NCBI RefSeq assembly: GCF_001543895.1
Contig: NZ_JYIJ01000018.1
Coordinates: 558,001-622,000 of the forward strand
Length of the DNA stretch: 64,000 nucleotides
Direction: 5' to 3'
Origin: Carbonactinospora thermoautotrophica
GTDB lineage: Bacteria > Actinomycetota > Actinomycetes > Streptomycetales > Carbonactinosporaceae
Below are positions 20,656 to 25,625 of the stretch, piece after piece. Below the pieces are notes generated by a model. It saw only the letters and a program-made list of their open reading frames with translations, was not told the DNA's origin and made no database searches. The first letter of the stretch is position 1; every line of letters starts with the position of its first letter. The position numbers and the translations under genes are program-made.

Positions 20656-22092
20656 ATGACCCAACCCCTGTCCTGCCGGATCGCCGTGGTGGGCGGCGGC
20701 ATCGCCGGGCTGGCCGCCGCGTGGTTCCTCACCCAGCGGTCCGCCGGCCGCGTCGAGGTGATCGTGCTGGAGAGCAGCCCGCAGCTCGGCGGCAAGCTGC
20801 GGGTCTCCGAAGTGGCCGGCCTGCCGGTCGACGAGGGCGCCGAGGCGTTCCTGGCGCGCCGTCCGGAGGCGATCGAGCTGGCCCGCGCGGTCGGCCTGGG
20901 TGCGGACCTGGTCGCGCCCGCCACGATCGCCGCCGCCGTCTGGACCCGCGGGGCGGTGCGGCCCCTGCCGAAGGGCCACATCATGGGCATACCGACCGAT
21001 CTGCGGGCGCTCGCCGCCGCCGGCGTGCTGTCCCCGGGCGCGCTGCTGCGCCTGCCGCTGGACCACGTGCTGCCGCGCACCGAGGTGGGCGAGGACGTGT
21101 CCGTCGGCCGGTACGTGGCCGCGCGGCTCGGCCGGGAGGTCGTGGACCGGCTGGTCGAGCCGCTGCTCGGCGGGGTGTACGCGGGCCACGCCGACCTGCT
21201 CTCGCTGGACGCCACGATCCCGCAGCTCGCCCGCGTCGCCCGCGAGGAGCGCTCGCTGCTCACCGGCGCGCGCCGGCTGGTCGCGGACGCGGGCCAGACC
21301 CCCGCCGGGCCGGTGTTCAACACCGTCGCCGGCGGCCTGGGGCGGCTGCCCGAGGCGCTCGCCGGCGCGCTCGCCGCCACCGGCGCGGCCCACCTGCGGA
21401 CCGGGGCCACCGTCCGGGAGTTGCACCGTACCGGCACCGGCTGGCGGCTGGTCCTCGGCCCGACCCGCGCGCCGGAGGCGCTGGAGGTGGACGGCGTGAT
21501 CCTCGCCGTGCCGGCGGGCGCGGCCAGCCGGCTGCTCGCCGACGCGGTGCCGGGCGCCGCCGCCGAGCTGGGCGGGATCGACTACGCCAGCGTCGCCGTC
21601 ATCACCCTCGCCTACCCCCGCAGCGCCTTCCCCCGGCCGCTCACCGGCAGCGGCTTCCTGGTCCCGCCGGTGGACGGGCGGTTGGTCAAGGCGGCCACGT
21701 ACGCGTCGGTCAAGTGGGGCTGGTTGGGCGAGGCCGACCCGGACACGGTGATCGTCCGGCTGTCCGTCGGCCGGTACGGGGAGGAGCAGGACCTGCAGCG
21801 CGACGACGCCGAGCTGGCCGAGCTGGCCCACGCCGACCTCGTCCGCGCGGTGGGCGTGCAGGGCCGGCCGATCGACCATCGGGTCACCCGGTGGGGCGGG
21901 GCGCTCCCGCAGTACGCCGTGGGCCACCGCGCCCGCGTCGCGCGCATCCAGGCGGCCGTTGCCGCCGTGCCCGGGCTGGCCGTGGCCGGCGCCGCGTACG
22001 ACGGGGTGGGCATCCCCGTCTGCGTCGCGAGCGGGCGGGCCGCCGCCGAGCGGGTGCTCGCCGCCTTGTTGCCAAAGGCCCGTTCCGCGTAG
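20656..22092 (+). CDS. cgoX: coproporphyrinogen III oxidase (HemG/HemY type)
   Basis: 478 residues. FAD-binding N-terminus VVGGGIAGLAAAWFL and the second motif SPQLGGKLR; DEGAEAFLARRPEA is characteristic of the protoporphyrinogen/coproporphyrinogen oxidase family; C-terminal FAD motif GVGIPVCVASGRAAAERV. In Gram-positive bacteria this enzyme oxidises coproporphyrinogen III to coproporphyrin III with oxygen, the step before iron insertion. HemQ follows, which supports that assignment. Old annotations call it hemG or hemY. A 22-bp direct repeat covers its stop codon. Confidence 0.93.
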   Translation: MTQPLSCRIAVVGGGIAGLAAAWFLTQRSAGRVEVIVLESSPQLGGKLRVSEVAGLPVDEGAEAFLARRPEAIELARAVGLGADLVAPATIAAAVWTRGAVRPLPKGHIMGIPTDLRALAAAGVLSPGALLRLPLDHVLPRTEVGEDVSVGRYVAARLGREVVDRLVEPLLGGVYAGHADLLSLDATIPQLARVAREERSLLTGARRLVADAGQTPAGPVFNTVAGGLGRLPEALAGALAATGAAHLRTGATVRELHRTGTGWRLVLGPTRAPEALEVDGVILAVPAGAASRLLADAVPGAAAELGGIDYASVAVITLAYPRSAFPRPLTGSGFLVPPVDGRLVKAATYASVKWGWLGEADPDTVIVRLSVGRYGEEQDLQRDDAELAELAHADLVRAVGVQGRPIDHRVTRWGGALPQYAVGHRARVARIQAAVAAVPGLAVAGAAYDGVGIPVCVASGRAAAERVLAALLPKARSA

Positions 22093-22114
22093 GCCAAAGG
22101 ACCGTTCCGCGTGA
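22071..22114. repeat. 22-bp imperfect tandem duplication at the cgoX stop
   Basis: The segment GCCAAAGGCCCGTTCCGCGT (22071-22090) with its TAG is followed by a near copy at 22093-22114 with three changes. The stop codon lies in the first copy, so the second copy is untranslated spacer before hemQ. It looks like a recent local duplication. Confidence 0.75.
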
Positions 22115-22140
22115 GATCCGCCCCCAAGGAGAATGGACGC

Positions 22141-22836
22141 ATGGCTAATGAGAAGCCCAAGGCCCGTGACCTCAACGAGGTCATCCGCTACACCAACTGG
22201 GTGGTGTTCCGCCTCCGCGACCGGCTGCCCGAGGACCGCGCCGCGCTGACCGGCGAGGTCGAGGAGCTGTTCGACCAGCTCGCCGCCAAGGACGTGGTCA
22301 TCCGCGGCACGTACGACGTGGGCGGTTTCCGCGCCGACGCGGACCTCATGATCTGGTGGCACGCGCCCGCCACGGACGACCTCCAGGAGGCCTACCAGCG
22401 GTTCCGCCGCACCGCGCTGGGCCGCCACCTGGAGCCGGTCTGGTCGCAGATGGCGCTGCACCGGCCGGCCGAGTTCAACAAGAGCCACATCCCGGCGTTC
22501 CTCGCCGAGGAGGAGCCGCGCGCGTACGTGTGCGTGTACCCGTTCGTGCGCTCGCTGGAGTGGTACCTGCTGCCCGAGGAGGAGCGGCGCCGGATGCTGG
22601 CCCAGCACGGCATGATGGCGCGCGAGTACCCGGACGTGCGGTCGAACACGGTGGCCTCCTTCGCGCTCGGCGACTACGAGTGGATGCTCGCGTTCGAGGC
22701 CGACGAGCTGCACCGGATCGTCGACCTGATGCGCCACCTGCGCGGGGCCGAGGCGCGCCGCCACACCCGGGTCGAGATCCCGTTCTACACCGGCCGCCGC
22801 AAGCCGGTCGCCGAGATCGTCGCCGCCCTGCCGTAG
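22141..22836 (+). CDS. hemQ: coproheme decarboxylase HemQ (chlorite dismutase-like)
   Basis: 231 residues. Chlorite-dismutase-fold protein of the HemQ branch: [33 protein letters not shown] (with the catalytic Tyr) and [15 protein letters not shown] (proximal haem His). It turns iron coproporphyrin (coproheme) into haem b by oxidative decarboxylation of two propionates, using peroxide. ATG 22141 with AAGGAGA upstream; the ORF's 22111 start is not supported. It completes the coproporphyrin route with HemE and CgoX; no ferrochelatase gene is in this window. Confidence 0.95.
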
Positions 22837-22847
22837 CGCCGGCTGGG

Positions 22848-23270
22848 TCACCTCCGGGCGCGCCGGCGATGCAACCGGGCCGCCAGGGCGTACGGCCACG
22901 CGAGCGACGGCGGGGTGAGGAGCCCGCGCAGGTGGTCGGGCAGCAGGCCGCGCTCGTCCAGGTAGCGGGCGAACGCCAGGCCGTCGGCCCGCGCGCCGCC
23001 CGGCTTCGGGCGGGCTCGGGCGTACTCGCCGAACCGTGCCGCGTACTGGTCGCCGAGCGTGATCGCCAGGTCGGGGAAGAGCCGGGCCACGACGCTGCGC
23101 CGCTTGGCGACCAGGACGGCCGCTTGGACGCGCACGCGGACGGGGTCGAAGCCCTCCGGCACCGGGCCGCCGGCCACCAGGGCGTGCAGCAGCTCCGCCT
23201 GGGCGCGGGCGAGCCGCTCGCGGGCCGCGTCCGGGTGCACGCCGCCCCCGGGCGGCGGGTCAGCGGCCAC
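22848..23270 (-). CDS. MNIO partner protein (SCO6045-like)
   Basis: 140 residues, soluble. Begins [25 protein letters not shown], then a helical body with [29 protein letters not shown] and a C-terminal [17 protein letters not shown]. Place and length match the SCO6045-like protein that follows DUF692 in actinobacteria; in general DUF692/MNIO enzymes act with a partner that binds the precursor peptide. GTG 23270 overlaps the DUF692 stop by 11 bases, so translation is probably coupled. The gene ends 11 bases from the convergent hemQ. Family assignment is from memory of gene order, not from a motif. Confidence 0.7.
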
Positions 23271-24069
23271 GGGCGCCCTCCACCACCGACCGGATCGCGG
23301 CCAGCTCGGCCGCCAGCTCCGCGTCGCTCGGGTAGTTCTCGTCCCGCTCCAGCAGCACGCCCGGCAGGTCGGCGCGGGCGGCCAGTTCACCGAGCAGCTC
23401 CAGGATCGGCGTGCTGACCGGGTGGGCGTGCGAGTCGTACCAGACGCCGGCGTGCTCATAGCCGCCGGCCACGTGCGCGTACGCGATCCGCTCCAGCGGC
23501 AGGCCCTCGATCGCGGCGACCGGGTCCAAGCCGAAGTTCACCCGGTTCGTGTGCAGGTTCGCGACGTCGACCAGCAGCCCGACCCCGGTGCGCTCGACCA
23601 GCTCGCCGAGGAACTCGGCCTCGGTCAGCTCGTCATCCGGCCAGGCCAGCACGGCGGCGATGTTCTCCAGGGCGAGCGGCACCGGCAGGGCGTCCTGGGC
23701 GATCCGGACGTTCTCCACGACGACGCCCAGCGCCTCGCGGGTGCGGGGGACCGGCAGCAGGTGGCCGGCCTCCAGGCCGCCAGCGCGCACGAACGCCAGG
23801 TGTTCGCTCACCAAGGGCGAGTCCAGGGCCTCCGCGCAGCGGGCGAGGTGGGCGAGCCGGTGAGGGTCGGGCCGCTCCGCGCCGCCGAGCCCCAGGCTCA
23901 CCCCGTGCGGCACGACGGGCACGCCACGGCCGCGCAGCACGCGCAGCGACTCGGGCACCCGGTCGGGCCGGATGTTCTCGGCGATCACCTCGACGAAATC
24001 CACGCCGGGAAGGCGCTCCACGGTCAGGTCGATCTCCGGGCGCCAGCCGATGCCTACGCCGAGCCTCAT
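23260..24069 (-). CDS. DUF692 multinuclear non-haem iron oxidase (MNIO)
   Basis: 269 residues, TIM-barrel of the DUF692 family. Expected iron ligands are carried by [46 protein letters not shown] and LLERDENYP. Characterised members use two or three iron ions to modify Cys (or Asp) residues in ribosomal peptides, often making metal-binding or thio-modified products (for example bufferins). ATG 24069 overlaps the stop of the TIGR04222 gene (ATGA). The upstream Cys-rich protein is the likely substrate and the downstream gene the partner. The reaction on this substrate is not known. Confidence 0.92.
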
Positions 24070-24776
24070 CCACCGCCCCCGCCGCATCCACCGCCGCAGG
24101 AGCTTCCGCATCCGCTGCCGCCGTCGCCCCCGGAACCCCCGCCGTCCGAGCTGCCGCCGTCGCCCCCGGAACCCCCGCCGTCCGAGCCGGAGCCGCAGCT
24201 CGCGCTGTCGCACCAGAGGGGCGAGGAGTAACCGCCGCCTCCGGAACCCGCGGCGGCCGCCTGGTGACGAGCCTGTTCCAGGGAGGCGCGCAGCTCCTCG
24301 TCGGGCAGGTACGCCAGGCCGTACAGGGCCACCGCGCCGAGGCCGGCCGCGGCCGCGACGTGCGGGGCGATCCGGGTGCGCTGGTTGGCCAGGGCACGCC
24401 GCCCGGCGGGCGTCAGCCGGAACTCCCAGGGACCGCGCCGGCCCAGCAGACGCGCCCACCAGCTGTCCTCCCGGCGGTGCAGCAGGCCGAGCGCGGCGAG
24501 CCTGTCGCCGATGCCCTGGACGACGGGGTGCCGCATGACCTCGGCGCGGACGGCGGCGACCTGCCGCAGGTTGCCGGGCCCAAGGGCGGCGTGGACGGCC
24601 GCCTCGACCGGGTTACGGGGGGCGTAGATGACCGCGGACAGGGTGCCGTTCCGGGAGGCGCGCAGGCGTCCCTCCCACACCATGGCCACGAGCACGGTGT
24701 CCACCACGCGACGCGGCCCACCGGCGAGGAACGCCGATTCGAGCACGCCCAGCTCATGTGCATCCCAGGGCTGCAT
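24066..24776 (-). CDS. TIGR04222 membrane protein with Cys/Gly/Ser-rich tail
   Basis: 236 residues. A basic soluble N-terminal domain (about 1-135; [21 protein letters not shown]), one short hydrophobic segment ([19 protein letters not shown], about 140-158), then a tail of some 65 residues. The tail is almost only Gly, Ser, Asp and Cys, with five Cys (WCDSASC and [11 protein letters not shown]) and a duplicated 12-residue Gly/Asp/Ser block. TIGR04222 is a family with low-complexity C-termini. Coupled by ATGA to the MNIO gene, so I infer it is the enzyme's substrate, with the tail as the modified core. No leader-peptidase site is visible. Topology: tail either inside or outside, undecided. 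Confidence 0.85.
24115..24186. repeat. 36-bp perfect tandem repeat in the TIGR04222 tail
   Basis: Two copies (24115-24150 and 24151-24186) encode the duplicated Gly/Ser/Asp block of the Cys-rich tail. The identity at DNA level suggests a recent expansion, kept in frame. Confidence 0.9.
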
Positions 24777-25223: not shown

Positions 25224-25625
25224 TCACAGCGCCGGCTCGAGGGTGAGCGCGATCGAGTTGATGCAGTAGCGGTTCCCGGTCGGGGTCTGCGGCGCGTCGT
25301 CGAACACGTGGCCCAGGTGCGAGCCGCAGCGCCGGCAGCGCACCTCGGTACGGGTCATGCCGTGGGAGCGGTCCTCGCGCAGCTCGACCGTGTCCGAGTC
25401 CATCGGCTTCCAGAAGCTCGGCCAGCCGCAGCGGGAGTCGAACTTCGTCTCCGAGCGGAACAGCTCCGCCCCGCAGGCGCGGCACCGGTACACGCCGACG
25501 GTCTTGGTGTCGACGTACTCGCCGGTCCACGGGCGCTCGGTGCCGGCTCCGCGAAGCACCTGGTACTCCTCGGGCGTCAGCCGTGCCCGCCACTCGGCCT
25601 CGCTCTTCTCCACCTGGTACGCCAT
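25224..25625 (-). CDS. msrB: peptide-methionine (R)-S-oxide reductase
   Basis: 133 residues, standard MsrB length. Two CxxC zinc motifs ([11 protein letters not shown] and [14 protein letters not shown]), the conserved [11 protein letters not shown], and the catalytic Cys in [10 protein letters not shown]. It reduces methionine-R-sulfoxide in proteins, using thioredoxin as reductant. Single gene with its own short hairpin downstream. Confidence 0.97.

Follow-up and report, generated by a model that had tools for sequence, protein, structure and literature searches.

A TIGR04222–MNIO–partner operon in Carbonactinospora thermoautotrophica with a candidate cysteine-tailed substrate that is probably soluble

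The operon and its surroundings

We analyzed a 64,000-nucleotide stretch of the Carbonactinospora thermoautotrophica genome (contig NZ_JYIJ01000018.1, positions 558,001 to 622,000), hereafter called the window. Three overlapping open reading frames were identified on its minus strand in the order T, MNIO and P (Table 1), which code for a protein with a TIGR04222 domain (T), an oxidase of the PF05114 (DUF692) family (MNIO) and a partner protein (P). The span of the genes and their coupling by an ATGA and an 11-base overlap were as described in the initial annotation of this DNA. A profile search of the genome recovered one TIGR04222 gene and one PF05114 gene, both of which are those of the window.

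Table 1. Features of the operon and its neighbors in the window
Feature	Position	Strand	Description
T	24066-24776	-	ATG start, 236 aa, TIGR04222 domain; candidate substrate in which neither a signal peptide nor a transmembrane helix was found
Putative GOLPH3-like folded domain of T (residues 6-173)	24258-24761	-	AlphaFold2 core mostly pLDDT >90; fold matches to GOLPH3/Vps74
T residues 140-158	24303-24359	-	"Membrane segment" of the initial annotation; aligns with the conserved pre-tail motif
Disordered Gly/Ser/Asp tail of T with five Cys	24069-24251	-	From sequence; pLDDT <50; probable modification site
MNIO oxidase (PF05114)	23260-24069	-	ATG start, 269 aa; ATGA overlap with T at 24066-24069 (4 bases)
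MNIO/P overlap	23260-23270	-	11 bases
P, short DUF2063-like MNIO partner (PME-type 2 kind)	22848-23270	-	GTG start, 140 aa
PPOX-like and HemQ genes	20656-22836	+	Convergent on the operon
msrB-like gene	25224-25625	-	Upstream of T

The HemQ gene and a protoporphyrinogen-oxidase-like (PPOX-like) gene are located downstream of the operon on the opposite strand. HemQ is convergent with and downstream of the operon in 36 of the 79 named relatives, and in none of the Streptosporangiaceae loci. PPOX-like, HemQ and msrB-like neighbors were also seen in Embleya and in Streptomyces sp. SID3343 (L104, L088), and this arrangement looks ancestral in that lineage. The operon does adjoin hemQ and heme genes, as had been noted initially, but the metal-handling theme that was drawn from these neighbors is weakened by a synteny that is limited to the Streptomycetaceae. 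The gene order is inherited, and the heme genes are of little value for predicting function and constitute weak evidence for a metal role.

The T and MNIO genes are associated well beyond the window. PF05114 was detected in 129 and TIGR04222 in 114 of the 148 genomes from the window's order, usually side by side. Across 296 genomes from the phylum, TIGR04222 scored above the cut-off in 11, MNIO was found in 15 and both were found in 10, which means that MNIO was present in 10 of the 11 TIGR04222 genomes, as compared to 5 of the 285 others (Fisher p ~3e-14, ignoring relatedness). A chance association was rejected by this phylum-wide co-occurrence along with the locus counts given below. A survey of TIGR04222 and DUF692 genes had been suggested in the initial annotation, and the strong co-occurrence is the opposite of what it named as evidence against T as a substrate.

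The TIGR04222 protein and its cysteine tail

T scored 94.4 bits against TIGR04222 (cut-off 43), with the match covering positions 30-141 of the 229 in the profile. In most TIGR04222 relatives, an N-terminal transmembrane helix precedes the domain, which is followed by a transmembrane hairpin, a short conserved motif and the tail. T, however, aligns to the family HMM at positions 39-148 and 199-236 only, which leaves HMM 1-38 (the N-terminal transmembrane helix) and HMM 149-198 (the transmembrane hairpin) without a counterpart. The domain is present in T, but the multi-helix membrane architecture of TIGR04222 proteins was not found, and T was not filed as a TIGR04222 membrane protein. A truncation by a wrong start codon or a frameshift was ruled out, since there is no upstream in-frame start; in addition, the overlapping upstream open reading frame lacks a hydrophobic N-terminal segment, and the hairpin has been lost by an internal, in-frame deletion.

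No signal peptide was found in T, the N-terminus of which is folded in the AlphaFold2 model and has no hydrophobic leader. The stretch at residues 140-158, with a Kyte-Doolittle value of 1.62, had initially been read as a membrane segment that anchors T. It aligns, however, with the conserved pre-tail motif of the relatives, which is not a membrane segment. In the model, it forms two short helices (138-144 and 146-152) that lie within the domain, and no transmembrane helix is seen. Together with the absence of the helix and the hairpin and with the low values of the counterparts described below, this leaves the membrane anchor unsupported. Since T has neither a transmembrane helix nor a signal peptide, the protein is probably soluble and cytoplasmic, as is the reaction in which it would take part. 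As a counterpoint, the pre-tail stretch of the window T is borderline hydrophobic.

A class-wide search for proteins that match across the deletion recovered hairpin-less, Cys-tailed T proteins from three other actinomycete genomes, in two of which MNIO and P are adjoining. In one of these two loci, L255, the gene order T, MNIO and P of the window is conserved, with a T of 220 aa that has six tail Cys; in the other, L256, MNIO and P accompany a T of 230 aa with five tail Cys. The T protein of the third locus, L254, has four tail Cys and is encoded near a contig end. A related domain was found in L253, with no MNIO nearby. The pre-tail stretch in L253, L254 and L255 has Kyte-Doolittle values of only 0.83-1.02, and L256 is less certain as a soluble form because its most hydrophobic stretch reaches 1.91. 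Hairpin-less TIGR04222 proteins that are not linked to MNIO, with Gly-rich tails from which Cys is largely or wholly absent, were also observed in Streptomyces (L155-L157).

We also examined the charges that flank the membrane helices of the ordinary members. In 40 Cys-tailed T proteins, the mean number of Lys and Arg residues in 15-residue flanks was 4.1 after TM1, 3.9 before TM2 and 3.75 after TM3, as compared to 0.45 in the TM2-TM3 loop and 0.62 before TM1. By the positive-inside rule, this pattern predicts that both the domain and the tail of ordinary TIGR04222 proteins are located in the cytoplasm, opposite to their published placement (PMC12452194). A reservation concerns some Streptomyces T1 proteins, in which the pre-tail segment is more hydrophobic (1.6-2.2) and could be a fourth helix.

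The five Cys of the T tail are located at positions 189, 194, 223, 227 and 231 within the Gly/Ser/Asp-rich residues 176-236, and together with the TIGR04222 score they bear out the initial description of the protein. Gly directly follows four of the five Cys in the window, and 294 of the 348 tail Cys across the relatives (84%). A W-C pair that precedes the low-complexity part, as in the window (PLWCDSASC), is present in many Streptomyces T1 tails. Cys tails were identified in 52 of the 70 T loci that are linked to MNIO, as compared to 3 of the 16 unlinked loci (p 6e-5, ignoring relatedness), and it is Cys rather than Asp that is constant in the MNIO-linked tails. The strict adjacency of the genes, the link between Cys tails and MNIO and the high frequency of Gly after Cys make the earlier suggestion that T is a candidate substrate credible. 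The tail spacer is encoded by a perfect 36-bp tandem duplication (24114-24187, 2.1 copies), which suggests that the tail has grown recently.

In structural comparisons with VIA-align, the T domain matched GOLPH3 with a Z score of 8.0 over 159 residues and Vps74 with Z scores of 6.8 and 6.5, while MarR-type regulators ranked below these (4.5 and under). The alignments cover 143-159 residues with a sequence identity of 8-13%, and it is the fold alone that is shared; no evidence for phosphoinositide binding was obtained. PF05719 (GPP34) was not matched by T itself and was matched by one of 40 T homologs (E 0.0024), and a Foldseek search with the T model gave no significant match. Searching the T profile against PDB sequences yielded low-complexity matches to the tail and weak matches to winged-helix regulators only. 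The Z scores are modest, and we consider the GOLPH3-like fold as a lead and not as proof of kinship. DUF2207_C was matched by 7 of the 40 T homologs (best E 0.00056). The TIGR04222 matches below the cut-off in the phylum sample (L174-L192 and others) were mostly open frames of about 600-900 amino acids, which may be DUF2207 proteins and possibly distant relatives, since seven T homologs match DUF2207_C.

The oxidase and its partner

MNIO enzymes are known chiefly for their action on small peptides, many of which are exported, and hold two or three irons by conserved His, Asp, Asn and Glu ligands. The window MNIO scored 270.7 bits against PF05114 (cut-off 25), and nine residues (H55, H90, E135, D168, N171, H199, D212, H214 and E241) were found to be invariant in an alignment of 125 relatives. 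The score and these ligand-type residues agree with the initial identification of a DUF692/MNIO enzyme with an intact ligand set. By motif, N171, D212 and H214 correspond to site 3 of HvfB (N175, D242 and H244; PMC13419390), while the assignment of the remaining residues as putative iron ligands comes from motif matches with 3bww, 8hci and 7dz9 and from general knowledge of the family. The protein scored below the cut-off of every named MNIO subtype, with BufB and HvfB the nearest by score. Both of these enzymes make thiooxazoles on Cys. An extra, diverged MNIO directly followed by a Cys-tailed T was observed in one Streptomyces genome (L160), and no P was found in the stretch that was fetched.

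P has no significant match to family profiles and no Pfam match, but 7 of its 39 homologs match DUF2063 (best E 9e-6). A reading of P as an AAA_lid protein (E 0.24) was dropped in view of these matches. The AlphaFold2 model of P, built from the 39 homologs, is all helix with a mean pLDDT of 89.6, and its best VIA-align matches are MbnC (Z 6.2) and TglI (Z 5.2 and 5.0), the partners of MbnB and TglH, with the next, unrelated matches at 3.1. These Z scores are modest for a helical protein, yet all three top matches are MNIO partners. Compared to MbnC and TglI, P is shorter, only 11-14% identical in sequence and lacks the C-terminal RRE region; its model contains no RRE-like winged helix, and the protein is too short to accommodate a full RRE domain. 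Foldseek gave no significant match to the P model, and no credible match of the P profile was obtained among PDB sequences. With a fold resembling that of DUF2063 partners, no DUF2063 signature above the cut-off and a gene directly after MNIO, P fits PME-type 2. The third gene had been described as encoding a partner-type protein, and the DUF2063 matches of the homologs and the structural matches uphold this description.

P was present in all 80 loci of the MNIO clade to which the window belongs (the window included), as a separate open reading frame in 46 loci and fused in one reading frame to the C-terminus of MNIO in 34. On the MNIO tree, such fusions occur at three or more positions, namely in most Streptomyces, in a Mycolicibacterium/Kutzneria pair and in the SID3343 sequences next to Embleya. 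The results indicate that P is a genuine MNIO partner, and since relatives fuse it to MNIO, P is likely to be a fixed part of a single enzyme. HvfB and HvfC have been fused in this order in an engineered protein, which is active (PMC13419390). The main texts that we checked mention no MNIO–partner fusion of natural origin, and we do not claim priority.

Not every locus of this clade includes a Cys-tailed T. Streptomyces MNIO–P with only a tail-less T accounted for 14 of the 80 loci, and no T was found beside MNIO–P in 10, some of which are near contig ends. The tail-less protein, T2, is a TIGR04222 paralog of about 260 amino acids. MNIO–P fusions with only T2 or with no T detected were observed in L119, L123, L126, L135, L139, L140 and L207-L222. 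No Cys-rich candidate was seen adjoining the enzyme in these loci. MNIO–P is thus retained without a Cys-tailed T in these Streptomyces, which is the chief difficulty for the model that we propose below.

Proposed role and relation to known systems

From the features above, we infer roles for the three proteins in which MNIO and the short P would form one enzyme that oxidizes Cys in the disordered (G/S)C(G) tail of T. The GOLPH3-like domain of T is probably recognized in place of a leader peptide, because P has no RRE, the domain to which leaders bind in other MNIO systems. Both the reaction and its product would be cytoplasmic, and the product would be a protein with several oxidized Cys, with 5-thiooxazole as our best guess from the analogy to bufferins and oxazolins. 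The modified T may then bind a soft metal such as copper. Taken as a whole, we consider it fairly probable that MNIO–P oxidizes the tail Cys of a cytoplasmic T to give a protein-borne metal ligand. It is a tentative suggestion, about which we are rather doubtful, that cytoplasmic folded proteins with poly-(G/S)CG tails are more generally converted to multi-thiooxazole metal ligands by one- or two-chain MNIO–partner enzymes, with a GOLPH3-like domain serving as the leader.

The Streptomyces genomes that have MNIO–P with a tail-less T only, or with none, would be accounted for if T were an adaptor or a chaperone, with MNIO–P modifying a protein encoded elsewhere and the unmodified Cys tail binding metal, for example in the delivery of iron or copper. 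The few Cys-tailed T proteins that are encoded away from MNIO (L145, L149, L158) and the absence of MNIO from a third of the TIGR04222 genomes (PMC12452194) are also in line with such a role. We nevertheless regard it as unlikely, since Cys tails are much more common beside MNIO, the genes overlap in the window and the tail-less loci gave no other Cys-rich candidate. It is still less likely that MNIO–P acts on T by a different reaction or at different residues, such as hydroxylation of the spacer Asp. Asp is indeed present in the tail spacer, the window MNIO falls below all named subtype cut-offs, and MNIO reactions are diverse, with targets that include Cys, Asp, Asn, Phe and homocitrulline (PMC12452194, PMC13174530). 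Against this stand the constancy of Cys, and not Asp, in the MNIO-linked tails and the formation of thiooxazoles on Cys by the nearest subtypes.

We find it similarly improbable that T is a membrane-anchored substrate, in which residues 140-158 form a single membrane helix and the tail works outside the cytoplasm. The hydrophobicity of this stretch and the possible fourth helix in some Streptomyces T1 proteins favor such an arrangement, and published models put the tails outside (PMC12452194). Yet the stretch is modeled as two short helices in a folded domain, its counterpart in L253-L255 is clearly no membrane helix, the Lys and Arg pattern of canonical members places the tail inside, and T has no signal peptide. 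If the preferred reading, a soluble and folded substrate, is correct, it would mean that MNIO enzymes modify ordinary intracellular proteins too, and not only exported peptides. A soluble T would also be much simpler to test experimentally than a protein embedded in the membrane.

We compared the operon to bufferin (BufABC) and oxazolin (HvfABC) systems, with which it shares an MNIO, a DUF2063-type partner and repeated Cys that are often followed by Gly. The bufferin and oxazolin precursors are exported peptides or proteins and have a Sec signal peptide, whereas the window T has no signal peptide and carries a folded domain before the tail. Their partner is of PME-type 1, with DUF2063 and an RRE, whereas the window P is short (140 aa) and has neither a DUF2063 match nor an RRE. 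The window operon thus lacks both the Sec precursor and the PME-type 1 partner that characterize these RiPP classes.

The closest resemblance is to the TIGR04222–MNIO–PME-type 2 clusters described by Antoine et al. (2025; PMC12452194), in which the tails were proposed as substrates. The class and the substrate idea are hence already published, and the protein-sized substrate is not the different kind of product for which it had initially been taken. In that study, TIGR04222 proteins accounted for 40% of the signal-peptide-less Cys proteins encoded before MNIO genes. The clusters contain the same three kinds of proteins in the same type of neighborhood, have Cys/Gly/Ser C-terminal tails, lack a Sec signal peptide and are found mostly in Actinomycetota, all as in the window. 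The published proteins are integral membrane proteins with Cys-rich tails that were placed in the periplasm by models, whereas these transmembrane parts are missing from the window T. The probably soluble T, the constant and often fused P and the tie of Cys tails to MNIO adjacency go beyond the main text of that study, as does the predicted inside location of the tail in ordinary members, where the charge pattern puts the outside placement in question. At least 10% of the TIGR04222 clusters were predicted to have a PME-type 2 partner and many were reported as apparently without one, whereas a partner was present in every locus compared here, often fused to MNIO. This bears on the open point of the seemingly partnerless TIGR04222 clusters, many of which may be explained by the fusion.
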